Source: Alphaproteobacteria bacterium
Lineage (GTDB): Bacteria; Pseudomonadota; Alphaproteobacteria; SMXS01
Reading direction: 5' to 3'
NCBI GenBank assembly: GCA_028284945.1
Contig: JANQQJ010000039.1
Coordinates: 1 to 64,000 of the forward strand
DNA length: 64,000 nucleotides
A model generated the notes under the pieces. It made no database searches. It was not told the DNA's origin and saw nothing but the letters and a program-made list of their open reading frames with translations. The translations under genes were made by a program, and so were the position numbers. Positions 16,764 through 64,000 of the stretch are shown here, piece by piece (position 1 is the stretch's first letter; every line of letters begins with the position of its first letter).

Positions 16764-17915
16764 ATGGCACATAAGCCCACTTCCGAGGAACTGGACGCGC
16801 TGATTGTCTATCGCGACTTCAAGGAAACCAGTATTCAGCGGATTAACCTACACCTGACAAAGGGATTTATCGACCGCGGCTACAAGGTGGGTGTTGTCGG
16901 ATTCAGTCCTGAAGGAGAGGTCCGGAGCGAGTATCCAGCCTCTACGGTGTTTTTTGACTGCGGCGGCCTACGGTCGCTCGCCTGTATTCGACCCCTGTCA
17001 CGCATCATCAAAGCAACAAAGCCAAGGGCGATACTCAGCGCCTATGGCCCGGTAAACATCACAACGATCTTCGCCGCGCGATTAGCCGGCAGCAATGCGA
17101 CACTGGCTGTCAGCGAACATAACCAACCTGTCAGCCTGCCGCTGAAAGGACGCCCGAAAGGCGAGTACGTCGCGTACAAGCTGATGCGCTACCTCTATCC
17201 CTTTACCACCAAAATCGTCTGTGTATCCAAAGGGCTGAAGGAAGACTTCGTCCGGTATACGGGATTAGCCCCCGACCGATTTGCGGCAATTTACAATCCC
17301 GTCGTGACCGACGATCTGGAAACACTTTCGAATGAACCGTTCGACCATCCATGGGTGGAAGATACGGCGACACCGCTTCTGGTCGCCGTCGGCCGGCTTG
17401 ATCTGGTCAAGAACTACGATGTCATGTTCCGGGCGATCGCCAAAGTCCATCAGCAGAGACCCGTCCGGCTGATCGTTCTTGGTGAAGGTATTCAGCGCAA
17501 GAACCTGGCCGGCGAAATCAAAAAACTGGGCCTCGAAGACGCAATAGACATGCCGGGTTTCGCCCGCAATCCATACAGCCTTATGCGGCGCGCTGACCTG
17601 TTTATCCAGACCTCTGAACGAGAAGCACTCTCCAACGTCATCGTCGAAGCGCTGGCCTGCGGCACATCCGTCGTATCGACCGATTGCCGAAGCGGTCCAC
17701 GTGAGATTCTCAAAGATGGTGCACTGGGAGACCTTGTCCCCGTCGGGGATGAAGATGCCTTTGTCCGCGCGATCATCCACCGGCTCGACAACCCCTTCGA
17801 CCCAAGCGCCCTGATAAAACGGGCGCAGGATTTTACGGTCGAAAGAGCGGTCAACAGCTATGTGGAATTGCTGTTCAAAGGGATTCAGGCCAGCCCGTCA
17901 GACCACGTGAAATGA
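16764..17915 (+). CDS. GT4-family glycosyltransferase (first of a related pair)
   Basis: 383 residues, GT-B fold, family GT4 (PF13439/PF00534). The N-domain ends with the helix KIVCVSKGLKEDF. The C-domain holds VAVGRLDLVKNY and the EX7E donor-binding motif REALSNVIVEALACG, followed by the STDCRSGPREIL phosphate loop. No signal peptide or membrane span, so a cytoplasmic or membrane-edge enzyme is expected. It is closely related to the next gene (same VCVSKGL, EALACG(T), TDC.(T/S)GP and RAQDFTVE(R/K)AV sequences). A glycan-building cassette with the sulfotransferase is likely. Confidence 0.9.
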   Translation: MAHKPTSEELDALIVYRDFKETSIQRINLHLTKGFIDRGYKVGVVGFSPEGEVRSEYPASTVFFDCGGLRSLACIRPLSRIIKATKPRAILSAYGPVNITTIFAARLAGSNATLAVSEHNQPVSLPLKGRPKGEYVAYKLMRYLYPFTTKIVCVSKGLKEDFVRYTGLAPDRFAAIYNPVVTDDLETLSNEPFDHPWVEDTATPLLVAVGRLDLVKNYDVMFRAIAKVHQQRPVRLIVLGEGIQRKNLAGEIKKLGLEDAIDMPGFARNPYSLMRRADLFIQTSEREALSNVIVEALACGTSVVSTDCRSGPREILKDGALGDLVPVGDEDAFVRAIIHRLDNPFDPSALIKRAQDFTVERAVNSYVELLFKGIQASPSDHVK

Positions 17916-18026: not shown

Positions 18027-19163
18027 TTGAACAGTGAAAAACTGGACCTGCTTATCGTCAATGCCGGCCTCAGCAACGGCAGTGTTCACGGCATTCAAGT
18101 GTGCCTGGCAAACGAACTCACCGCGAGGGGGTATCGGGTGGGAATTCTGTCACTTATCGACCAGGGACCGCTGCTCGAGAAACTGCATCCCGACATTCTG
18201 ACATTCTCCTTCAAGGGTAAGCGATCGCATGAGTGCATCAGGCCCATGGCCGCGCTGATCGACCAGTATACGCCTCGGGCCGTCCTGAGCGGCTTTGTTA
18301 CAATCAATGTCATTACCGCGTTTGGTTCGTGGTGGGCGAAGTCCAAACACAGGCTCGTTCTTTGTGAACACAACCACCCGTTCAAGCTGCCCATGCGCGG
18401 ATACAGGAAGCGCCAGTTGGTGCTGCAATGGCTCGCCAAATTCATTTACCGGCCGGCCTACAAGGTTGTCTGTGTCTCCAAAGGATTAATACCGCTCCAG
18501 CAGCGCGTGTCGCGCCTGCCTGACGACCGGTACATGGCCATTTACGACCCCGTTGTTTCTGAGGAGCGGACAGCCCTTTCCTATGAGGAGAGCGATCACA
18601 AATGGTTCAACGACCATTCAGTTCCCCTGATCGTATCCATTGGAATTCTTGTCGCCCGCAAAAATCATGAAATGCTGATCAGGGCATTCGCGCGCCTGCG
18701 TGAAACCCGCGAAGCCCGGCTGGTCATTCTGAGCGAGGGGCCGGAGCGGCCCAAACTTGAACAGCTGGTGCAGGAGCTCGGCATGGGCGACGACATCGAT
18801 ATGCCGGGCTGGGTGCCTAATCAAATGTGCTTTCTGCGGCGCGCGGATCTGTTTGCCCTGGCCACCAATCAGGAAGGCCTGTGTGACGTCATCATCGAGG
18901 CCCTGGCCTGCGGCACGACCGTGGTCACCACCGACTGTCCGACAGGTCCCGCCGAAATTCTTAACAATGGAGAATTCGGCACTCTTGTGCAGGTGGGCGA
19001 CGAAGTGGGTCTGGCCGAGGCCATGGCATACAGGCTGGACAATCCGCTGCCCTCAGAACCCCTAATCGCGCGCGCGCAGGACTTTACCGTCGAAAAAGCG
19101 GTCAGTGCTTACGAGCATGTTCTGTTTGGCGACGATGCTTCAGATCAACGTGTTGAACGATGA
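18027..19163 (+). CDS. GT4-family glycosyltransferase (second of a related pair)
   Basis: 378 residues starting with TTG at 18027 after GAGGGAACG. The fold and motifs match the previous gene: KVVCVSKGLIPL, SIGILVARKNHEML and the EX7E motif QEGLCDVIIEALACG, then TTDCPTGPAEIL. Sequence similarity over the whole length suggests a tandem duplication followed by divergence. The donor sugar is unknown. The 111-base spacer before it shows no clear gene; a 34-codon frame there is probably chance. Confidence 0.88.
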   Translation: MNSEKLDLLIVNAGLSNGSVHGIQVCLANELTARGYRVGILSLIDQGPLLEKLHPDILTFSFKGKRSHECIRPMAALIDQYTPRAVLSGFVTINVITAFGSWWAKSKHRLVLCEHNHPFKLPMRGYRKRQLVLQWLAKFIYRPAYKVVCVSKGLIPLQQRVSRLPDDRYMAIYDPVVSEERTALSYEESDHKWFNDHSVPLIVSIGILVARKNHEMLIRAFARLRETREARLVILSEGPERPKLEQLVQELGMGDDIDMPGWVPNQMCFLRRADLFALATNQEGLCDVIIEALACGTTVVTTDCPTGPAEILNNGEFGTLVQVGDEVGLAEAMAYRLDNPLPSEPLIARAQDFTVEKAVSAYEHVLFGDDASDQRVER

Positions 19164-32312: not shown

Positions 32313-32878
32313 TGATGCAAACACCTAAAGCGATACCAGCCATCGAACGCGGCACCAAAGCTCTCGGCTTCGACATGGCCATCGACCTGGAGACCGGCAC
32401 GCTGTTGCGGACATTGGCGGCCAGTAAGCCCGGCGGGATCTTTCTCGAACTCGGGACCGGGACGGGCGCGTCAACCGCCTGGCTCGCCGATGGTATGGAT
32501 GAAACCAGCCGCCTTTTGTCGATCGATGTAGACAAAGATGCGAGTGCGGTCGCGCAGGGTGCCCTGACAGGCGATGACCGGATCACCTTCCAGCTCATCG
32601 ACGGCGCAGACTTCCTCACGGCCTATGATGGGCCACCGTTTGATCTGATCTTTGCCGACGCAATGCCCGGCAAGTTCGACGCACTGGATGAAGCGCTTGC
32701 CCTCGTCGCACCCGGCGGCCTCTATGTCGTCGACGACCTGCTTCCGCAACCCAACTGGCCGGAAAACCACCAGCCCAGGGTGGATGCCTTCGTCGAACGG
32801 CTGAAGAACGAGCCCGGGTTCAGGTCAACCTACCTGGAATGGTCGACAGGAATCCTGATTGCCACACGAACAGTCTAG
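32312..32878 (+). CDS. SAM-dependent O-methyltransferase-like protein
   Basis: 188 residues. The SAM-binding motif LELGTGTGASTAWLADG at about residues 39-55 and FDLIFADAMPGKF mark a class I methyltransferase of the O-methyltransferase_3/24 type. The start overlaps the ccdB stop. It is not BioC: it lacks the BioC N-terminal and malonyl-ACP features, and it follows ccdB rather than the bio genes directly. It converges on the DUF2889 gene with a 4-base overlap. The substrate is unknown. Confidence 0.8.
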   Translation: MMQTPKAIPAIERGTKALGFDMAIDLETGTLLRTLAASKPGGIFLELGTGTGASTAWLADGMDETSRLLSIDVDKDASAVAQGALTGDDRITFQLIDGADFLTAYDGPPFDLIFADAMPGKFDALDEALALVAPGGLYVVDDLLPQPNWPENHQPRVDAFVERLKNEPGFRSTYLEWSTGILIATRTV

Positions 32879-33441
32879 TCCCCCTGATACCATTCCGGCA
32901 GAAGCTCCTTGACCACCGGGCTGTCATAGGCCCAGGAGTGGCAACCACCCAGGGCGTGCGGTTTGCGCTTTGGTTTGTTCGGGTCTTGCGGCTTGCCGTC
33001 GTTCATCTGGCGCATATGGGTTGGAATCGCCTGAAACGCGACGGTGGCCATCGGGCCAAACAGCTCAACCACATGCGTACAGCCGTGCTTGCCACCGACC
33101 TGTTCACGCACCCGTTTCATCCAACCAGGGCCAATCTTAAGCCCTCTTATGGCGTCGAAATTGGGCTCTACCTCGTTGCAAATGGAAAACGGAAACGCGT
33201 CCATCTTGACTTCAATATCGACCACGGTGAACGTCTCGTCGACGGTCAGGCGGATATTCATATCATGCACCGGTTCGCCCGCCACAACCCGTCCGCGGGC
33301 CTGACTTTCATAGGAATAGGCTTTTACGTCACGGACGCGGCCTTCAATGTCCCAAAGCCCGTCTTCACGATAGAACGCATTCATTTCGATGTCGCGGGTA
33401 TGCAGCGGCCTGCGGCCTTCCTGCGGCGCCGATAGCGGCAT
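32875..33441 (-). CDS. DUF2889 protein
   Basis: 188 residues from the ATG at 33441, 7 bases after AAGGAG. The DUF2889 fold is shown by GRVRDVKAYSYE, DMNIRLTVDETFTVVDIEV and the C-terminal GCTHVVELFGPMATVAFQ. The family has no firm function; it is often beside genes for aromatic or lipid catabolism. It is divergent from the flavin reductase and overlaps the methyltransferase end. Confidence 0.85.
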   Translation of the reverse strand: MPLSAPQEGRRPLHTRDIEMNAFYREDGLWDIEGRVRDVKAYSYESQARGRVVAGEPVHDMNIRLTVDETFTVVDIEVKMDAFPFSICNEVEPNFDAIRGLKIGPGWMKRVREQVGGKHGCTHVVELFGPMATVAFQAIPTHMRQMNDGKPQDPNKPKRKPHALGGCHSWAYDSPVVKELLPEWYQGD

Positions 33442-33593
33442 GGACACTCTCCTTATGGGGGCTTTTTGACCTGGCGCGCACTATGCGCAAGCTGTCACCA
33501 CCCTGCAAGATGCCGAGGCCGAAACCCTGCTTGCACTAAGACGGTCTTTCTGAGATCAATGGCTTCCTCACCCAACAGACGGCAGGCCCCCTT

Positions 33594-34094
33594 GTGACTG
33601 ACACATCCGAGCTCGATCCTCTTAGCCTGCGCAAGGCGCTGGGCTGTTTTGCCACCGGTGTGACGGTGGTCACGACGCATACAACCGACGGCACGCCGAT
33701 CGGCGTGACGATGAACTCTTTTTCGTCGGTTTCGCTGGATCCACCCTTGGTTTTGTTCAGTCTGGCCCGCACATCCGATCAATTCGATCATTTCGCGGCA
33801 GCGACCAATTTCGCGATCAACATCCTGTGCCAGGCACAAGAAGAACTGTCGAACAATCAGGCAATGAATGACGACAAGACCCTCGCCTCGGACGTCTTCA
33901 GGACGTGGGAGACGGGTGCGCCCATCCTGAACGACAGTATTGCCGCGTTCGACTGCTCGCTCGAAGAGCGTCTCGAAGGAGGGGACCATGTCATTTACTT
34001 ATGCCGCGTCCATCGCGCGGAACGGTTGAGCGAGGCAGAGCCGCTTATCTTCCACCGCAGTGGATACGCTAAGCTGCAACCCGCCGACGGCTGA
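33594..34094 (+). CDS. Flavin reductase family protein (FMN-binding split barrel)
   Basis: 166 residues starting with GTG. The family marker CFATGVTVVTTHTTDGTPIGVTMNSFSSVSLDPPLVLFSL is visible in two halves at residues 17-57, and DHVIYLCRVHRAE is near the C-terminus. Such proteins reduce FMN or FAD with NAD(P)H and supply two-component monooxygenases. Its 3' end overlaps the convergent TRAP permease gene by 26 bases. Partner oxygenase unknown; the Rieske enzymes need a different kind of reductase. Confidence 0.9.
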   Translation: MTDTSELDPLSLRKALGCFATGVTVVTTHTTDGTPIGVTMNSFSSVSLDPPLVLFSLARTSDQFDHFAAATNFAINILCQAQEELSNNQAMNDDKTLASDVFRTWETGAPILNDSIAAFDCSLEERLEGGDHVIYLCRVHRAERLSEAEPLIFHRSGYAKLQPADG

Positions 34095-36114
34095 TTGCAA
34101 ACAGGGCGACAAACAACACCAACCCGACCAAATTGACAGTCAAGGGTTCGGGCCACAGCAGAAAAACGCCTGCCACCGCCGAGAGCACTCGAAGCAATGG
34201 TGGCAATGGCCGCTCGAGATAACCGTCGAGCGCCCCTGCTAATGCATAAACACCAATCAGCGCAAAGCCGAACACCTGCAGGGCAGCCAGCCAGTCGCCG
34301 GATAGGATGGGTGTGTAAGCGAAGAGAAACGGGATGATGTAGAGCCCCTTGGCGATCTTCCATGCTGTAAAGCCCGTCGCAACCGGCGGAGTCTTGGCAA
34401 TGGCCGCCGCGGCAAAGGCCACCAGGCAGACCGGCGGGGTAACATTACTGTCCTGGCTGAGCCAGAAGATGATCATATGCGCTGATAAAAGCGCAGCGGT
34501 CAGCAGCCCGGCATCCAGCCCGCGCTCGACAATCAACGGCATCAAGTCAGGCGAAATACCGGCCGCAAGCTGTTCCGCCGCATAGCGAGTCATCGGCGCG
34601 CCGAGCACCTCTGCAAGTTCGGGCCGCGCCGCTGCTAACACCTGTCGCGCCCCTTCTGCCAGTGTCCCGTCCGCAAGGGCATGCACAAGATGGGTACCCG
34701 CGATCATGTGATAGAGCGCTGGCGCTGATAGCGTAGCGAGGACGATGTAGCTCGCTGTCACCGGCAACCCCGCCCCCAGGACCAGCGAGGCAGCAGCGAC
34801 CAGCAGAATCGCGATAAACAGGTTTCCATCCGCCCAGCTGCTGATCATGATCGAGAAGGTGGCGCCGATGCCCGTCGTCGCCACCGCATTCACCACCAAG
34901 CCAATGGCGACAAGCAGAACAGCGGTAAACGCCATGTTCCGCGATCCCAGCGCCAGCGCCTCAACGATGGCTTTTGGCCCCATTCTGTCCGGCGTTAGCC
35001 AGGACGAAACAATGACAGCCAGAATGGCAATCCCGGCGGCGTAGGTTGGCGTGAAGCCATCGACCAGAAGCGCAATGAGCACTGCTATGGGAATCAGAAA
35101 TGACGGGCCACGGGTAAGCAGCACCTGGCCCAAAGCAGGGCCGTCCTCCTCAACCACCTTGATGTCGTGTTTCTTGGCCTCGATCCGCACGAAGAAACAG
35201 ATCGACGCGAAGTAGAGCAATGCCGGAAGCACCGAGACCGCGACGATCTGTAAATAGGGAATCTGGGTATAGCTCGCCATAACAAAGGCCCCTGCCCCCA
35301 TGATCGGCGGCATGAGCTGCCCACCGGTCGAGGCCGCTGCCTCCACGCCTGCGGCAAACCGTGCGGGAAACCCTGCACGCTGCATCAGGGGGATAGTGAT
35401 TACGCCGGTGGTCACCGTATTGGCGACAGCAGACCCGGTGACGGTGCCGGTAAGACCCGAACTGATCACCGCTACGAACCCCGGTCCACCCGTGACTTTG
35501 CCCGCCACCGCCTTGGCCATTTGGATGACGAATTCACCGGCTCCGGAGCGGATTAAAAATGCGCCGAACAGGATAAACATGAACACAAAGGTCGACGATA
35601 TGCGGGCAATCGGCCCGAACATACCTTCGCCCCCGAAATAGCTGCGAAAGGCGATTGTCTCCAAAGACAAGCCGGGAAAGTGCAGCACACCCGGGACATA
35701 ACGCCCCCACCAGACCACATAGAAGACGGCCAGGATAATCACGACAGGGATGAATAGCCCCGTGGTTCGTCGCACCAGCTCAAGCGCGATTACGATCGTA
35801 CCGAGTGCGAAAACCCAGTCCATTACGGAAAAGGTCAGGCCGCGATCAAACAGCGGTTGCTCGCCCAGAATGACGTATATTCCGCCGGCCAGCGCCATGC
35901 CACCCAGTACGAGCGCCGCCCGGGTTGAAAGCGCGGGCAGCAAGAGTGCGGTCAGCGCTGCAAACAGGCCGAAATGCAGGGCTGACATCCAGATTTCCGG
36001 CAGGGTGCCCAGCAGATTAGCATAAAGATGGGCAAGTGAAATGACGACGCCCAGCCAAAAGACCAGCCGGTCGCGAATCCGATGGGGCGACAAAAGTGTT
36101 TTATCGACCGTCAC
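34069..36114 (-). CDS. TRAP transporter permease, fused small and large subunits
   Basis: 681 residues with about sixteen or more transmembrane helices, the size of fused DctQ-DctM permeases found with TAXI-type binding proteins. Motifs include GSAVANTVTTGVITIPLMQRAGF, GQLMPPIMGAGAFVMA and LSQDSNVTPPVCLVAFAAAAIA. It imports an organic acid using an ion gradient. It overlaps the binding-protein gene by ATGA (36111-36114), so they form a two-gene operon. The substrate is unknown. Confidence 0.93.
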   Translation of the reverse strand: MTVDKTLLSPHRIRDRLVFWLGVVISLAHLYANLLGTLPEIWMSALHFGLFAALTALLLPALSTRAALVLGGMALAGGIYVILGEQPLFDRGLTFSVMDWVFALGTIVIALELVRRTTGLFIPVVIILAVFYVVWWGRYVPGVLHFPGLSLETIAFRSYFGGEGMFGPIARISSTFVFMFILFGAFLIRSGAGEFVIQMAKAVAGKVTGGPGFVAVISSGLTGTVTGSAVANTVTTGVITIPLMQRAGFPARFAAGVEAAASTGGQLMPPIMGAGAFVMASYTQIPYLQIVAVSVLPALLYFASICFFVRIEAKKHDIKVVEEDGPALGQVLLTRGPSFLIPIAVLIALLVDGFTPTYAAGIAILAVIVSSWLTPDRMGPKAIVEALALGSRNMAFTAVLLVAIGLVVNAVATTGIGATFSIMISSWADGNLFIAILLVAAASLVLGAGLPVTASYIVLATLSAPALYHMIAGTHLVHALADGTLAEGARQVLAAARPELAEVLGAPMTRYAAEQLAAGISPDLMPLIVERGLDAGLLTAALLSAHMIIFWLSQDSNVTPPVCLVAFAAAAIAKTPPVATGFTAWKIAKGLYIIPFLFAYTPILSGDWLAALQVFGFALIGVYALAGALDGYLERPLPPLLRVLSAVAGVFLLWPEPLTVNLVGLVLFVALFAISRRRVAA

Positions 36115-37175
36115 GGTGTCGCCTCCAGCAGTTCCGGTGGCAACAGCTCCGGCGGGATTACCACGCCCTGCTCAGCAAAGTAGCGGACTGCACCGGGGTG
36201 CAACGGCACGGGAAGCCCGGTCAGGGCGGTATCCAGCGTGATCGACCGGGTCGCCCGGTGGACCGAATAGAGAAAGGGCAAGTTCTCGAACATGACCTTG
36301 GTGATCTGGTAGACCACTTCGTCATCGACATCAGCATTGACCGCAAAGAAGTTTGGTTGCGCGGCCGTCAAGATCGGTTCGGTCTGACCCGGATATGTAC
36401 CAGCCGGCACCTCAAACGCGCTCCATAAGCCGACACCTTCATTCAGGGCTGCTAGTTCTTCCGGCGTGATGGTCAACACCGTCATCTCGTCGCCAATCGC
36501 GGCCATGGCACGCGACACCGCACTGACAGGCGCCCCTGCGGGTGCACTAAATCCGTCAATCGTGCCGTTCTGCAGCGCGTCAGCGGCAGCGTTATAACTC
36601 AGATAGGCGAACCGCAGATCACGGTCTTTCTCAATATCCAACGACAATAGAATCCGTTTGGTCGACTCCATGGCCCCGGAGTTCCGGCCACCGACCGCAA
36701 AGGTACCGCCGTCAATATTGTGCAAGTCAGCAAGCGTGCCGCTTTCCACTGCATCTGACCGGATCGCGAAGTGCTCGACATTCTGCCAGAGCATGGTGAT
36801 CGACCGCAGGCCCAGTTGCGGCCCGGCTTGCCCCCAGGTCCCCTCGCCCGTCTTGGCCCAAAAACCGAATAGTCCCTGCACCAAGGCAAAGTCCGCCTCA
36901 TGCGACCGCATCAACTTGATGTTCTCGCCCGACCCGGCGGAATTGATCGCCGACAGCGAAATACCTTCGCTTTCCTGAAGGTTTAGTTTCACCAGCGTAC
37001 TGATGGCGACGCCCACGGGGTAATAGGTTCCCCCGGTGGAGGCAGTGGTCAGAATGAACGACTTTTGCGACCGGTCTTCGACGCCATCGCACCCGGCCAA
37101 AACAAACGCTGTCATCACCCAAAGGCCGAATAGCATCCGTGCAGGCTTGTAGTTCGTCAACCGGTCGTGGATCAT
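36111..37175 (-). CDS. TAXI-family TRAP transporter substrate-binding lipoprotein
   Basis: 354 residues from the ATG at 37175, which follows AAGGAGCCTGC; an upstream in-frame ATG at 37271 lacks a signal peptide. A lipobox VLAGC gives Cys29. The start of the mature domain, FILTTASTGGTYYPVG, is the TAXI signature, followed by ADFALVQG and later FSAPAGAPVSAV. It binds the transported ligand in the periplasm and delivers it to the fused permease encoded downstream. Confidence 0.92.
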   Translation of the reverse strand: MIHDRLTNYKPARMLFGLWVMTAFVLAGCDGVEDRSQKSFILTTASTGGTYYPVGVAISTLVKLNLQESEGISLSAINSAGSGENIKLMRSHEADFALVQGLFGFWAKTGEGTWGQAGPQLGLRSITMLWQNVEHFAIRSDAVESGTLADLHNIDGGTFAVGGRNSGAMESTKRILLSLDIEKDRDLRFAYLSYNAAADALQNGTIDGFSAPAGAPVSAVSRAMAAIGDEMTVLTITPEELAALNEGVGLWSAFEVPAGTYPGQTEPILTAAQPNFFAVNADVDDEVVYQITKVMFENLPFLYSVHRATRSITLDTALTGLPVPLHPGAVRYFAEQGVVIPPELLPPELLEATP

Positions 37176-37221
37176 GCAGGCTCCTTGGCTCGCATTCATC
37201 TCTACAGCACGGAATCTGCAA

Positions 37222-37353
37222 TTGAAACAGGCGACAAGAACCCTCGATGCGACCGGTCTGCTGTTCCCCATGCCGGTCCTTCGTGCGGAGAAAGTGTTGC
37301 CGGGGACGGCGACGGGCGACTTACCGGAATGCTGTGTCGGGTCATTGGATTAG
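37222..37353 (+). pseudogene. Truncated TusA-like gene lacking the catalytic cysteine
   Basis: A 43-codon frame (TTG to TAG) reads LKQATRTLDATGLLFPMPVL and continues RAEKVLPGTATGDLPE. It matches the start of the intact TusA-like gene at 38899: over 21 codons (37243-37305 versus 38920-38982) I count 57 of 63 bases identical. The active-site Cys (TGC) is Phe (TTC), and the second half of the domain is missing. It ends 3 bases before the start of the GT-C-like gene, which is sandwiched between the remnant and the intact copy. Confidence 0.75.
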
Positions 37354-37356
37354 CTT

Positions 37357-38871
37357 ATGGACAGTGAACCACGGGACATTGCAGACCGAACGTCCGTTGG
37401 AAAGGCCATAACCCTTCTTCTCTTCACGGCGCTTAATGTCCTCCTTGCAGTCACCCATGAGCCCTGGCGGGATGAAGCGCAGGCGTGGCTTATGGCCCGG
37501 GATCAGTCTATTGGCGAACTGATCCATTCAATGGGTTATGAGGTCACCCCCGGGCTTTGGCACCTCATGCTCTGGCCCCTCGCCCAACTCGGGGCTCCCT
37601 ATGGCGCTATGGCAGCGCTGCATTCAGTTGTCATGATCATCGCCGCCGGGCTGATTGTTTATTTCGCGCCCTTTCGGCTTTGGCAGAAAACAGCCGTTGT
37701 ATTCTCGTACTATATCTTCTTCGAGTACGGCGTTATTCAACGTCACTATTCACTTATGGTTTTGTTCGCCTTTGCCGCCGCTGCTGCCTACTCAAGGCGC
37801 GGCACAGATCCGTTTCTTTTTGGTCTGTTACTGGTGGGGTTGGCAAATAGCAGTCTACAGGGGGCGGTTCTCGCTGCGGGCTTTTGCGGCCTTATGATTT
37901 GGGATTGGTTGGTCACACGACGCTTTTTCCGTGCAACCGCGATGGTGTGCATAGTTGGACTGGGATTAGGCGTCGGGCCCGCTCTGATTCAAGCTTGGCC
38001 AAACAATGATGCCATGCTGTCGGATGGTGACTATGCATCACGATCAGAAAATCCAGGCATTCAGAATTCTGTTACTGCCCTGCGCCTAGCATATTTTCCG
38101 ATGGCGGGTCTGCCGCAAACACCTACCTTTGTTTTCGCAGTTGCCATCGTATTGCTTCTGCTATTCGACGTCCGAAATCGACTTGGTTTGTTGTTAATGT
38201 TCGGAGCCACCTTAGCGCTCTGGCTGTTCTTGTTTGCTGTGATGTCTCCTGGAACCCACCGGCACTTCGGCCTGATTTTTGTCCTGAGTTTGGTTGTTCT
38301 TTGGATACACAGAATCTCTCCTGCAACGCCCGCCAAGTCAGGTAACCAGCCCTCTCGCGGGCTCCAGCTCGGTTCGATGGCCTTTTTCGTGGCGGCTGTT
38401 CTGTCCATTCCCAAGAGCCTGTACAACGGCTGGGAAGATCTGATCTATCCCTTCTCTATGGCCGCAATGACCGCGGAAACGATCCGAGAAATTGAGCCGC
38501 TTCCATTGGTATCTCAAAGCCCCAACACAAAATCAGTCCTGCCATACATTCCAGATCGGCAGGTATGGCGACCCTATCGCGCCGCTTTTGGAACCTACGA
38601 CACTCATGACGAACTGTTTCCCAGCCATAAAAGCATGTCGACCGAAGAACAAATCCGGCTGTCAAAAAAACAGTTTGGCGCAAACCCGTTTCTTTTTGTT
38701 TCGCCGCTGCCGCTGGCCCAGCCTGCATCCTATGGCCTGACAATTTGCGCCTATGTCGAAGGCGCACACTTCGTCGATGAAAACTACTATATCTATTCCT
38801 ATGATCCGGTTTCAGGGTCGGAACCACCTGCTGGTTGCGATTCCATCGCCGTTGCCGCTTTACCCGACTAG
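37357..38871 (+). CDS. GT-C-like multi-pass membrane protein, possible glycosyltransferase
   Basis: 504 residues with about nine to eleven transmembrane helices. An N-terminal loop with HEPWRDEAQAWLMARDQS at about residues 34-51 is acidic (DEAQAW), as in GT-C-fold polyprenyl-sugar transferases. The C-terminus from about residue 345 is a soluble domain with conserved-looking YIPDRQVWRPYRAAF. By eye it is more AT-rich than its neighbours. It starts 3 bases after a TusA remnant. A glycosyltransferase role is inferred only from fold features. It lies upstream of the intact TusA-like gene. Confidence 0.65.
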   Translation: MDSEPRDIADRTSVGKAITLLLFTALNVLLAVTHEPWRDEAQAWLMARDQSIGELIHSMGYEVTPGLWHLMLWPLAQLGAPYGAMAALHSVVMIIAAGLIVYFAPFRLWQKTAVVFSYYIFFEYGVIQRHYSLMVLFAFAAAAAYSRRGTDPFLFGLLLVGLANSSLQGAVLAAGFCGLMIWDWLVTRRFFRATAMVCIVGLGLGVGPALIQAWPNNDAMLSDGDYASRSENPGIQNSVTALRLAYFPMAGLPQTPTFVFAVAIVLLLLFDVRNRLGLLLMFGATLALWLFLFAVMSPGTHRHFGLIFVLSLVVLWIHRISPATPAKSGNQPSRGLQLGSMAFFVAAVLSIPKSLYNGWEDLIYPFSMAAMTAETIREIEPLPLVSQSPNTKSVLPYIPDRQVWRPYRAAFGTYDTHDELFPSHKSMSTEEQIRLSKKQFGANPFLFVSPLPLAQPASYGLTICAYVEGAHFVDENYYIYSYDPVSGSEPPAGCDSIAVAALPD

Positions 38872-38898
38872 GCTGTCATATCAATAGGAGTCGCGCAG

Positions 38899-39132
38899 AT
38901 GAAGGCAGCGTCCCAGACTCTCGACGCGACCGGTCTGCTGTGCCCCATGCCGGTCCTGCGTGCGCAGAAGGTGTTGCGGGGGATGGCACCAGGTGAGTTG
39001 CTTGAAGTGTACACGTCGGACCCCGCATCATGGACCGATATGGCATCGTTCTGTCAGGAAGCTGGGCACCGCCTGGTCAGCCGGGAGCGCGGCTACCCCA
39101 TGACGTTCATCATTGAAAAACTTCAAGGCTAG
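38899..39132 (+). CDS. TusA-like (SirA family) sulfur carrier
   Basis: 77 residues. The family motif LDATGLLCPMPVLRAQKV holds the catalytic Cys15 in CPxP, and DPASWTDMASFCQEAGHRL follows. TusA proteins carry persulfide sulfur for tRNA thiolation or other sulfur transfer. An AGGAG site lies upstream of the ATG. A truncated paralogue without the Cys is at 37222. It overlaps the end of the convergent acetyltransferase gene by 4 bases. Confidence 0.92.
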   Translation: MKAASQTLDATGLLCPMPVLRAQKVLRGMAPGELLEVYTSDPASWTDMASFCQEAGHRLVSRERGYPMTFIIEKLQG

Positions 39133-39635
39133 AGCGCCTTGGTCATCCAGATCAGCGCACGATCATCGATCGCAATCGAGGCACCGGGCGCCACCGCCTC
39201 TTGGTCATAGGTGACGCCCCTGCCATCCAGGACATAGCCGCGTGTGGCATAGAGCCGGTGGGCAGGCCCGTAATCCGCATAGAGACCGACACCGAGGCCG
39301 ACTTCCTCACAACCCTTATCCCTGGCTGAATTCTCCAAAGCATCCATGAGCGCCGTCGCAATACCTCGGCGCCAGAGATCAGGCGCCACGGTCAGGTCGT
39401 AAATCTCGGGGATGTTCCACTCGCGAAAGAGAGGATACCTAGAGTTCATCATAAGGCAGCCAAGACCGGCAATCTGGCCTGACACTTCGGCGACAAGAAC
39501 TATGAACTCTGGTCCCTGGTCATCGAGCAAGGTCCGCCAGCGGACCGGGTCTATTGAATAGGGAAATCGAGCCGCGTAAGCGCCCACCAACTGATCAAAG
39601 TCCTCAGGCCGGAGCGGTCGAACGAGCACGTCCAT
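39129..39635 (-). CDS. GNAT-family N-acetyltransferase
   Basis: 168 residues. It begins MDVLVRPLRPEDFDQLVGAY and has the acetyl-CoA motif APDLWRRGIATALMDALENSA (Q/RxxGxG/A). Such enzymes acetylate amines or protein N-termini; the substrate is unknown. It starts 6 bases after the Mpo1-like gene stop, so the two are probably co-transcribed. Confidence 0.9.
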   Translation of the reverse strand: MDVLVRPLRPEDFDQLVGAYAARFPYSIDPVRWRTLLDDQGPEFIVLVAEVSGQIAGLGCLMMNSRYPLFREWNIPEIYDLTVAPDLWRRGIATALMDALENSARDKGCEEVGLGVGLYADYGPAHRLYATRGYVLDGRGVTYDQEAVAPGASIAIDDRALIWMTKAL

Positions 39636-39641
39636 TTACAG

Positions 39642-39974
39642 CTACGCAGCCCCAGCCTCAACCAGCCGGGGTTTCAATCGCCGGGTGAGCCAGAGCAGAT
39701 ACATATGATAGTCCCCCCTCAGCGACCAGAATGGATAGGTGAAGGTCGCCGGCCGGTTCTTCTCGAAAAAGAAGTGAGCGACCCAAGCAGGGCCATATCC
39801 CGCGACCAAAGCCACAGCGATCAACCACCACATTTGAGTTGCTAGCGCGGCGGCAACCGACCCCAAGGCAAGTGTAGACCCGAAATAGTGAAGCCCCCGC
39901 GTCACCGGTTTGCTGTGCTCGCGCAAATAGAACGGAAAGAATTCCTCGTAGGTGGTTATGCGGTTGCTGGCCAT
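39642..39974 (-). CDS. Mpo1-like (DUF962) membrane protein
   Basis: 110 residues from the ATG at 39974. The DUF962/Mpo1 motifs YEEFFPFYLREHSKPVTRGLHYFGS and GYGPAWVAHFFFEKNRPATFTYPFWSLRGD are clear, with two transmembrane helices. Yeast Mpo1 is an iron-dependent dioxygenase that removes one carbon from 2-hydroxy fatty acids; the bacterial protein may do the same. This would suit the nearby beta-oxidation operon. It is upstream of the GNAT gene. Confidence 0.88.
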   Translation of the reverse strand: MASNRITTYEEFFPFYLREHSKPVTRGLHYFGSTLALGSVAAALATQMWWLIAVALVAGYGPAWVAHFFFEKNRPATFTYPFWSLRGDYHMYLLWLTRRLKPRLVEAGAA

Positions 39975-40023
39975 GGACTGAAGTGTATCAGGCACTGGAG
40001 CGGCAACCAAACCGCCTCGAACG

Positions 40024-40052
40024 TGTCACCCCCGCCTTGGGCGGGGATGACA
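40024..40052. repeat. Dispersed-type intergenic palindrome
   Basis: TGTCACCCCCGCC (40024-40036) and GGCGGGGATGACA (40040-40052) form a 13-bp stem with a single mismatch and a 3-base loop. Sequences of this kind are common dispersed repeats in alphaproteobacterial intergenic regions. It lies between the Mpo1-like gene and the MerR promoter. Confidence 0.7.
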
Positions 40053-40090
40053 AGCTTGGATTGCTTTCCATCCAACCAAAAATTCATGAC

Positions 40091-40119
40091 TTGACGTTTA
40101 CGTAAACGTTAACTAAATA
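40091..40119 (+). promoter_or_regulatory. Promoter with 16-bp palindromic MerR operator
   Basis: TTGACG (40091-40096) and TAAATA (40114-40119) are separated by 17 bases. The perfect palindrome ACGTTTACGTAAACGT (40094-40109) spans the -35 and spacer, and the pairing continues to 40091-40112 with one mismatch. MerR-type regulators bind such sites between -35 and -10. It resembles operators of LiuR-type regulators of acyl-CoA catabolism. Confidence 0.75.
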
Positions 40120-40139
40120 ATGCCCTGTCAGGACGTGAA

Positions 40140-40589
40140 GTGAGTCGGGAGCCTTCTTTCGTGAGCGAGTGCTACAGCATATCCGAGCTGTCCAAGGAGT
40201 TCGGGGTAACACCCCGGACAATCCGGTTCTATGAGGACCAGGACCTTGTTCACCCCAAGCGCGACGGACAAAACCGCATCTTCAGCGCCACGGACCGCAC
40301 ACGCCTAGCCTGGATTCTACGCGCCAAACGCGTCGGTTTCTCACTCGCTGAGATCCGCGAAATGCTGGACCTTTATGACCTGGGCGACGGCCGGGCAACG
40401 CAACGCCGGGTCACGCTCGAGAAATGCCAGGACCGGCTTAAATCACTTGAGGCGCAGCGCGCTGACCTTGACGCGACCATCGACGAGCTTTCCGCATTCT
40501 GCGAGCTGCTCGACAAATTGAATTCCGGGCTGCCGCTGGGCAAAGCCCGCAAGGAACACGAAGACCTGTTCAGGAGAGCCGTGACATGA
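40140..40589 (+). CDS. MerR-family regulator of beta-oxidation (LiuR-like)
   Basis: 149 residues from GTG at 40140 (a second GTG at 40161 is possible, after GGGAG). The N-terminal MerR helix-turn-helix is YSISELSKEFGVTPRTIRFYEDQDLV and the wing region follows, then a coiled-coil dimer helix (KCQDRLKSLEAQRADLDATIDEL). No metal-binding Cys set is seen except CELL, so it probably responds to an acyl-CoA or is a simple repressor. It lies directly upstream of the fad genes, overlapping the dehydrogenase by ATGA. Confidence 0.88.
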   Translation: MSREPSFVSECYSISELSKEFGVTPRTIRFYEDQDLVHPKRDGQNRIFSATDRTRLAWILRAKRVGFSLAEIREMLDLYDLGDGRATQRRVTLEKCQDRLKSLEAQRADLDATIDELSAFCELLDKLNSGLPLGKARKEHEDLFRRAVT

Positions 40590-42376
40590 CCACCTATACC
40601 GCCCCCATAGACGACATGAAGTTTGTGCTCTACGACTTTCTGGGCATTGACAAATATTCCAACCTGCCCGGGTTTGAAGATGCCTCACCCGATATTGTCA
40701 GCGCCATTCTGGAAGAGGCTGGCAAGATGGCTTCTGAGGTGTTGCACCCGATCAATCACAGCGGCGACCAGGAAGGCTGCACCTGGAATGACGGTGTTGT
40801 GACAACGCCCAGCGGCTTCAAAGAGGCCTATGATCTCTATCAGGAAAGTGGTTGGCAGAGCCTGACCGGGAATCCTGAATTCGGTGGCCAGGGCCTGCCG
40901 CAAACACTGGGGCTCGCGGTCTCGGAAATGATGATCGCCGCCAATTGGGGCTTCGGCATGTATCCCGGCCTGACCAAGGGTGCTGCAGAAGCGCTCGAAG
41001 CACACGGATCGGACGACCTGAAAAACACTTATCTGCCAAACATGATGGAAGGCAAATGGTCGGGCACCATGAACCTCACCGAGCCGCACTGCGGCACGGA
41101 TCTAGGCATGCTGCGGACCAAGGCCGAACCGCAAGCCGACGGCACATTTCGGATTACCGGGACCAAGATTTTTATCTCCGCGGGCGAACACGACCTGACA
41201 GAGAACATTATTCACCTTGTCCTGGCGAAAATTCCCGGCGGGCCAGAAGGTACCAAGGGCATCAGCCTGTTCCTGGTGCCGAAATTCCTGGTTAATGAAG
41301 ATGGCTCAGTCGGCGAACGTAACGGTGTTTCGTGCGGCTCCATCGAAGAGAAGATGGGCATCCACTCCAACGCGACCTGCGTGATGAACTATGACGATGC
41401 GGTCGGCTATCTGGTCGGCGAAGAGCACAAGGGCATGCCGGCCATGTTCACCATGATGAACGAAGCCCGCCTGGGTGTTGGCATGCAGGGCCTGGGCATT
41501 GCCGAGGTCTCCTACCAAAACGCGGTCACCTATGCCCGCGAGCGTATTCAAGGCCGGTCGATCAGCGGCACCAAGAGCCCGGAGACCGCCGCCGACCCGA
41601 TCATCGTTCACCCCGATGTACGCAAAATGCTGATGACGGGCAAAGCCTTCACCGAAGGCGCGCGGGCGCTGGCGGCGATGACCGGCCTGCAGATTGATCT
41701 GTCGCACACGCACCCCGATGAAGATGTACGCCAGAAGGCCGAAGACTTCGTCGCGCTGATGACGCCTGTTGTGAAAGCCTACTTCACCGATATGGGCGTC
41801 GAGGTCGCCAGTCTGTCGCTGCAATGCTATGGCGGTCATGGCTACATCGCCGAACATGGCATGGAACAATTCCTGCGCGACGCCCGGATCGCCCCGATCT
41901 ATGAAGGCACCAACGGTATTCAGGCGCTTGATCTCGTCGGCCGTAAACTGGCCCAGAATGGTGGCCGTGCGGTTCAGGCGTTCTTCGCCGAGGTGCAGCA
42001 ATTCGCCAATGACAACAAAGAAGACGAGTCGATCGGCAAGCATGCCGCTGAGTTGGGCCGCGTTGCCGGACAGCTCCAGCAGGCAACTATGTGGTTGATG
42101 CAGAACGGTGTTGCAAACCCGGACAATGCCGGCGCCGCCTCGACCGACTATCTGAAACTGATGGCTTTGACAGCCTTTGCCTATGTCTGGGCCATTTCCG
42201 CCAAAGCCGCTGCCGCCAAACTGGCCAACGGTGCTGACAACAAGCCGTTCTATGAGAATAAGCTGACCACGGCCCAGTTCTTCTTTGACCGGATGTTGCC
42301 GGAAACCGACAGCCTCTTGCGCAAAATCGAAGCCGGCGGCGACTCCATGATGGCCATGCCCGCCGAGGCATTCTGA
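40586..42376 (+). CDS. Acyl-CoA dehydrogenase (long C-terminal-domain type)
   Basis: 596 residues. The order of the N-terminal helix, beta-barrel and C-terminal helical domains and the extra C-terminal ACAD domain (PF12806) match the FadE-like enzymes found in proteobacterial fatty-acid operons. MNLTEPHCGTDLGMLRTKAEP and IYEGTNGIQALDLVGRKLA with the catalytic Glu region (YEGTNGIQ) are clear. FAD enzyme that oxidises acyl-CoA to enoyl-CoA. Coupled to the MerR gene by ATGA; second gene of the operon. Confidence 0.93.
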   Translation: MTTYTAPIDDMKFVLYDFLGIDKYSNLPGFEDASPDIVSAILEEAGKMASEVLHPINHSGDQEGCTWNDGVVTTPSGFKEAYDLYQESGWQSLTGNPEFGGQGLPQTLGLAVSEMMIAANWGFGMYPGLTKGAAEALEAHGSDDLKNTYLPNMMEGKWSGTMNLTEPHCGTDLGMLRTKAEPQADGTFRITGTKIFISAGEHDLTENIIHLVLAKIPGGPEGTKGISLFLVPKFLVNEDGSVGERNGVSCGSIEEKMGIHSNATCVMNYDDAVGYLVGEEHKGMPAMFTMMNEARLGVGMQGLGIAEVSYQNAVTYARERIQGRSISGTKSPETAADPIIVHPDVRKMLMTGKAFTEGARALAAMTGLQIDLSHTHPDEDVRQKAEDFVALMTPVVKAYFTDMGVEVASLSLQCYGGHGYIAEHGMEQFLRDARIAPIYEGTNGIQALDLVGRKLAQNGGRAVQAFFAEVQQFANDNKEDESIGKHAAELGRVAGQLQQATMWLMQNGVANPDNAGAASTDYLKLMALTAFAYVWAISAKAAAAKLANGADNKPFYENKLTTAQFFFDRMLPETDSLLRKIEAGGDSMMAMPAEAF

Positions 42377-42430
42377 CCCATAAACCGCCCCGTAGTTGAG
42401 GAACAACCCTTCCCTTAAAGGACCAATAAA

Positions 42431-43639
42431 ATGGCAGACGCATTCATTTACGACACAGTCCGCACCCCGCGCGGCCGCGGCAAAAAAGACGGCAGCCTGC
42501 ACGAGGTGACGCCGATTTCGCTGACCACCGACGTGCTGAAAGAAGTTCGTGACCGCAATGATCTGGATACCAGCCTGGTCGACGACATCGTCTGGGGCAC
42601 GGTGGAGCCAGTCAGCGAACAAGGTGCCGTGCTTCCCCGCATCGCCGCTCTCAATGCCGATTACTCCGAGGAAGTTGCAGGTGTGCAGCTCAACCGCTTT
42701 TGTGCATCCGGCCTTGTCGCCACCAACTATGCCGCCACCAAGGTGATGGCTGGTCAGGCGGACCTGGCGATCGGTGGCGGTACTGAGTGCATGTCCCGCG
42801 TTCCCATGGGCTCGTCCGGTGGTGCCTGGGCGACGGACCCGGCGGTCGCCATCAAGACCTATTTCGTGCCGCAGGGCATCAGCGCCGATCTCATTGCCAC
42901 CAAATATGGTTTCAGCCGCGACGACGTCGACGCCTATGCGCTGGAGAGCCAGCGCCGTGCCAAGGAATCCTGGGACGAAGGCCGGTTCGATAAGTCCGTG
43001 ATGACCGTCAAAGACGACCTGGGTATTACCGTTCTTGACCGTGATGAACACATGCGGCCCGAAACAACCATGCAGTCGCTCGCTTCCTTAAAGCCCTCTT
43101 TCGCCGAAACCGGCGACCAGTTCGGCTTCAACAGCGTCGCGCTACAGAAGTATCCAGAAATCGAAAAGCTCGATCACGTCCACCACGCGGGTAACAGCTC
43201 GGGCATTGTCGATGGCTCTGCGGCGGTGCTGGTTGGCAGTGCTGAAATGGAAGCCGTCACCGGCATGAAGCCCCGGGCCCGCATCAAGGCCTTCGCCGAC
43301 ATCGGCTCCGAACCCACCATCATGCTGACCGGCCCGTCCTTTGCCGCAGAAAAAGCCCTGAAGCGCGCCGGCATGACCAAAGATGACATCGACCTTTGGG
43401 AGCTGAACGAGGCCTTTGCCTCCGTCGTGTTGCGTTTCATGCAAGCGCTCGACATCGACCACAGCGACATCAACGTCAATGGCGGCGCGATTGCCATGGG
43501 TCATCCGCTGGGCGCAACGGGTGCGATGATCATGGGCACCGTTCTCGACGAACTGGAACGCCGTGACCTGAATACGGCCCTTGTCACCCTGTGCATCGGC
43601 GCCGGCATGGGCACCGCTACCATCATCGAACGCGTCTAA
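42431..43639 (+). CDS. fadA: Acetyl-CoA C-acetyltransferase (thiolase)
   Basis: 402 residues. Catalytic Cys91 lies in NRFCASGL; the His motif is [15 protein letters not shown] and the second Cys is in [10 protein letters not shown]. It cleaves 3-ketoacyl-CoA with CoA in the last beta-oxidation step. 54 bases separate it from the dehydrogenase. fadA-like by context, though a biosynthetic thiolase role cannot be excluded. Confidence 0.94.
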
Positions 43640-63423: not shown

Positions 63424-64000
63424 TTGAGACACACAGCAGGTGTAAGGATTGTATTGGCGTTTGCCGCGTCTCTGGCATTGGTTGCCTGCGGCGGGGCCGG
63501 CGCGCCCGTCGTAAACGCACCGGCACCACAGCCGGCACCGCAACCTGCACCACAGCCCCAACCGAACCCGCAGCCTCAGCCGGCGCCACAGCCTGCCCCC
63601 CAGCCAGCACCTCAACCGCCGCCCCAACCAGCACCACAGCCTCAACCCAATCCGCCGCCTCAGCCGCCCGCACAAGCGCCGCCTCTTCCGGCACCGATCA
63701 GTGGCGGCCCATTCGATACAAACGAGTTTCAGCGGAATTATGGGCTGGGCAGAATTAATAGTCTGGCTGCCTACAATGACGGTGTTACGGGACAGGGCGT
63801 CACCGTTGCTGTAATCGATTCCGGAATCGACCCCAACAATCCTGAGTTCGACGACAACCTGTCACCGGCCAGCATCGATATCGTCGGCAACCGGAATACG
63901 CTGACACCGGATTCGCCTCACGGCACGGGCGTCGCCAGCATTATTGCAGCGGAAAAGAACGACGTCGGTGTCCACGGCGTCGCCTATGAATCGACATTGA
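63424..64000 (+). CDS. Subtilisin-like S8 serine protease lipoprotein (cut by window edge)
   Basis: 192 residues are visible from the TTG at 63424, which follows AAGGAACGGCG. The N-terminus is a lipoprotein signal with lipobox LVAC (Cys22). A Pro/Gln/Ala-rich linker of about 60 residues follows (APQP and PQPAPQ repeats). The catalytic domain begins near residue 100: the Asp motif is VAVIDSGIDPNN and the His motif is SPHGTGVASI. The Ser motif lies past the window. It may be a surface or outer-membrane protease, perhaps an autotransporter. Confidence 0.92.
   Translation, partial: MRHTAGVRIVLAFAASLALVACGGAGAPVVNAPAPQPAPQPAPQPQPNPQPQPAPQPAPQPAPQPPPQPAPQPQPNPPPQPPAQAPPLPAPISGGPFDTNEFQRNYGLGRINSLAAYNDGVTGQGVTVAVIDSGIDPNNPEFDDNLSPASIDIVGNRNTLTPDSPHGTGVASIIAAEKNDVGVHGVAYESTL

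Follow-up and report, generated by a model that had tools for sequence, protein, structure and literature searches.

The window analysed here, the whole stretch of 64,000 nt, carries a partial and an intact copy of tusA on either side of a gene coding for a membrane protein. The features of this locus, with the evidence for the main ones in brackets, are the following:

34069-36114, TRAP permease gene, beyond the TAXI gene
36111-37173, minus strand, divergent gene for a TAXI-family TRAP solute-binding protein, left flank (start codon placed from a lipoprotein-like signal)
37222-37353, plus strand, open frame carrying the tusA remnant, from a TTG, which is in register with the ATG of the intact gene, to a TAG; only 37240-37329 is demonstrably tusA-derived
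37240-37329, plus strand, tusA remnant, codons 7-36, Cys15 changed to Phe, without the C-terminal half (repeat, alignment, codon comparison, end fit)
37357-38871, plus strand, gene for a GT-C-like (distantly PMT_2-like) membrane protein of 504 aa (atypical composition, patchy distribution, profile comparison)
38886-38890, plus strand, ribosome-binding site AGGAG of the intact tusA
38899-39132, plus strand, intact tusA, 77 aa (PF01206, 70.8 bits; sequence)
39129-42376, right flank: GNAT (minus), Mpo1-like (minus), MerR (plus) and acyl-CoA dehydrogenase (plus) genes

The downstream tusA is a full member of the TusA family (PF01206), its score lying well above the cut-off of 28.6 bits and the CPMPVL region being present. 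The upstream fragment derives from this gene and, unlike TusA proteins, lacks the catalytic cysteine and the second half of the domain and gives no Pfam hit; it was not counted as a member. A repeat search of the window returned the two copies as a direct repeat of 90 nt (37240-37329 and 38917-39006), 82% identical with a spacing of 1677, in which the remnant is a partial copy of tusA codons 7-36. Their local alignment scored 58, the maximum in 300 shuffles being 15. In a self-BLASTN of the whole window this pair was the strongest repeat (71 nt, 88.7%, E 1.4e-17). Over 37240-37310, 63 of the 71 bases are identical, in agreement with the 57 of 63 counted by hand for 37243-37305 in the earlier note, which had been made from the sequence alone. 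The note had also read the catalytic codon of the remnant as TTC in place of TGC, which proved correct: codon 15 encodes Phe, whereas all nine family relatives compared have Cys at this position. Elsewhere in the window, a tandem-like repeat (63520-63582 and 63604-63666, 82.5%) encodes a proline-rich linker located after a lipoprotein-like signal and before a subtilase-like domain, in a gene that runs past the window edge. A 57-nt similarity (17635-17690 and 18886-18942, 81%) lies in the same frame of the neighbouring ORFs 16764-17915 and 18099-19163, which are probably paralogues.

The limits of the tusA repeat were determined by a likelihood fit, which placed its left end at 37239-37244 and its right end at 37306-37330. 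Only 8 of the 18 nt of tusA codons 1-6 match the corresponding remnant bases, and no similarity above chance was found between the two copies upstream of 37239 and on the 5' side of tusA. Beyond about 37330 no likeness to the remaining tusA was detected, the C-terminal half being absent from the remnant, as the earlier note had stated for the rest of the domain. The part of tusA that is demonstrably repeated lies inside the gene and includes neither start codon nor ribosome-binding site; since the detectable duplication begins past both of these, the two copies have different 5' ends.

The corresponding region was compared in nine genomes of the same family, all belonging to genera other than that of the window. 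In all nine this tusA is single-copy and the GT-C-like gene is absent, which is the arrangement that the earlier note had suggested looking for in relatives, and no functional first copy was found in them. A more distant TusA-family gene occurs elsewhere in several of the relatives, and likewise in the genome of the window. In genus g2 (G001 and G003) the order is a conserved 190-aa gene, TRAP permease, TAXI, SDR, tusA, Mpo1-like, MerR and acyl-CoA dehydrogenase, one of the two genomes having additional genes between SDR and tusA; genus g3 has the 190-aa gene, flavin reductase and tusA, followed by MerR, acyl-CoA dehydrogenase and thiolase. The order Mpo1, MerR and acyl-CoA dehydrogenase to the right of tusA is common to the window and genus g2, and the gaps on either side of tusA differ from genus to genus. 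Since the TAXI gene lies to the left of the remnant and the GNAT, Mpo1, MerR and dehydrogenase genes lie to the right of the intact copy, the interval formed by remnant, membrane gene and tusA corresponds to one ancestral tusA. When contigs were scanned with the conserved neighbour 32878-33447, four g3-like contigs were obtained, then distant genomes, and no congener.

Two side observations were made on this region. The interval from the 190-aa gene to the MerR and acyl-CoA dehydrogenase genes (32875-43639 in the window; also L035, L036 and L037) varies by genus, the variable genes being TRAP-TAXI, SDR, GFA-like, GNAT and Mpo1, and tusA is constant. In G001 two contigs end inside tusA, and a duplication of the gene in this genome was considered and rejected: the end of contig C43 (L036:1-80) is an inverted fold-back inside tusA, L048 starts in the same gene, and the structure was read as a probable assembly artefact.

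The gene between the two tusA copies has the lowest GC (0.531) and GC3 (0.556) among the 43 ORFs of the window, for which the means are 0.589 (SD 0.022) and 0.685 (SD 0.045), respectively. In a class sample 2 of 384 other genomes contain homologues, and in a phylum sample 2 of 397 others, at 26-38% identity; a profile search added two weak ones, and none was found in the virus and plasmid collections searched. Where their surroundings could be read, the homologues adjoin other genes: leuA-like and argS-like, rpsB-like or nicotinamidase-like, these names coming from reading the translations and not from a family search. Composition and distribution suggest that the gene was probably acquired horizontally. 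Its 504-aa product, unlike PMT_2 proteins (PF13231), has no match in Pfam, NCBIfam or PDB sequences, and a single-sequence structure model (pLDDT 45) was of too low confidence for structure searching. Comparison by hhalign revealed a distant profile similarity to the PMT_2 family of GT-C glycosyltransferases in the N-terminal region, including a WRDE motif (probability 78%, E 1.7e-5; controls, TRAP permease E 0.23 and reversed PMT_2 sequences E 0.037). The GHP motif of its homologues reads VTP in the window protein. A GT-C-like fold is likely but unproved.

The history of the two tusA copies was then addressed on the 90 nt that they share. In a tree of this stretch, the remnant and the intact tusA are sisters (UFBoot 90), and five sites are common to both copies and occur in no more than one of ten further genomes. 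The copies are identical at 20 of 30 third codon positions, versus 11-17 of 30 between the intact copy and the nine relatives. These data support weakly, and do not prove, that the duplication is specific to this lineage, after its split from the sampled genera. Since the copies diverge by 18%, the event is not recent. The changes C15F, Q23E, R27P, M29T and L35P map to the remnant branch, at residues invariant or nearly so in the nine relatives. Apparently derived changes of the intact copy are mainly synonymous (e.g., codons 30 and 32), and the residues at codons 31 and 33, positions that vary among the relatives, differ in a way not assignable to a branch. Since all five changes at invariant or nearly invariant sites lie in the remnant, one copy appears to be under selection and the other free of constraint, which marks the remnant as a pseudogene. 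A literature search at title and abstract level on tusA pseudogenes arising by duplication returned nothing relevant.

Taking these results together, we consider it fairly probable that the remnant is a dead tusA fragment, which arose in this lineage when the GT-C-like gene, probably horizontally acquired, entered the tusA locus and about 70-90 bp of tusA were duplicated. A functional tusA would have remained downstream, and the partial copy on the upstream side would then have drifted as a pseudogene. The route may have been illegitimate or homology-facilitated recombination of the type known as insertion with long target duplication. That the membrane gene was acquired together with the partial duplication is supported in outline, since relatives have a single-copy tusA without the GT-C gene and the gene itself is atypical and patchy; the mechanism is unproven. 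The direct-repeat flanks that the earlier note had recognized around 37357-38871 were confirmed as a repeat of 71-90 nt on either side of the 1.5-kb gene. Its proposal of a partial tandem duplication with an inserted gene held as regards a lineage-specific partial duplication, given the sister copies and the derived changes on the remnant; the sequence gives no direct sign of a tandem duplication of the whole gene with later truncation, as the repeat contains neither start codon nor ribosome-binding site. Its suggestion that the gene arrived at tusA agrees with the composition, the patchy distribution and the absence from the nine relatives, and that duplication and arrival were a single event is something that we infer. 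The dissimilar 5' ends of the copies, unexpected under a plain tandem duplication, count against the insertion model and make other orders of events conceivable; that no integrase, transposase or terminal inverted repeat was found also counts against it.

Several other readings were weighed. tusA might have been duplicated in tandem first, the redundant copy decaying and later being cut short when the membrane gene inserted independently. The third-position excess among the differences between the copies (10 of 16, binomial 0.016) would fit early constraint on both copies; however, it is also explained by, and fits, drift of a constrained intact copy alone beside an unconstrained remnant, and the copies have no start region or upstream sequence in common, so that we regard this order of events as unlikely. 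Still less probable is a joint import, by recombination at tusA, of the membrane gene and the tusA downstream of it from a congener outside the sample; the fragment would then be a remainder of the resident gene. The differing 5' ends and the substantial divergence would agree with such an import, but the remnant and the intact copy are mutually closest among the genomes compared and the composition of tusA is ordinary for the window.

The 1677-bp unit carries one gene, no integrase or transposase was seen in it and no inverted repeats were found at its ends. A speculative reading, to which we give little credence, is that single genes are gained at tusA by an integrase-free route: an internal stretch of the target, 70-90 bp long, would be copied, and the target gene that stays functional would have a different 5' end from the displaced copy.

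We hold it about as improbable, or slightly more so, that the short open frame has been retained as a leader in translational coupling with the membrane gene. Open from 37222 (and in frame from an ATG at 37174), the frame ends in a TAG (37351-37353) 3 nt before the ATG at 37357, the gap that the earlier note had reported, and the membrane gene has only a weak ribosome-binding site; on the other hand, the frame lacks a clear start signal, a search upstream of it gave no promoter match, and a stretch of 90 nt open by chance is not unusual. The tusA fragment itself is probably functionless, and the short frame would be at most a transcribed leader. Finally, mere conservation of the CPMPVL region, which contains the CPxP core typical of the family, is ruled out as the source of the repeat by the third-position identity, the shared sites and the 90-nt tree, and we assign it a negligible likelihood.

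Returning to the insertion of the GT-C-like gene with partial duplication of tusA, the closest parallel is the insertion with long target duplication of Helicobacter pylori (Nobusato et al., 2000), as described in PMC1643837 and PMC4978471, according to which two strains were compared and the inserts are frequently restriction-modification genes. As in that description, an accessory gene lies between direct repeats derived from the target; unlike it, the insert here encodes a membrane protein, the divergence between the copies is 18%, and the case is known from the occupied site. The understanding of TusA and of gene transfer is left unchanged by this locus, which represents ordinary genome evolution and a pseudogene scar. 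It would preserve in legible form the acquisition of a single gene, at a locus with neighbours that differ between related genera, and would be a clean small case of relaxed selection on one of two copies.
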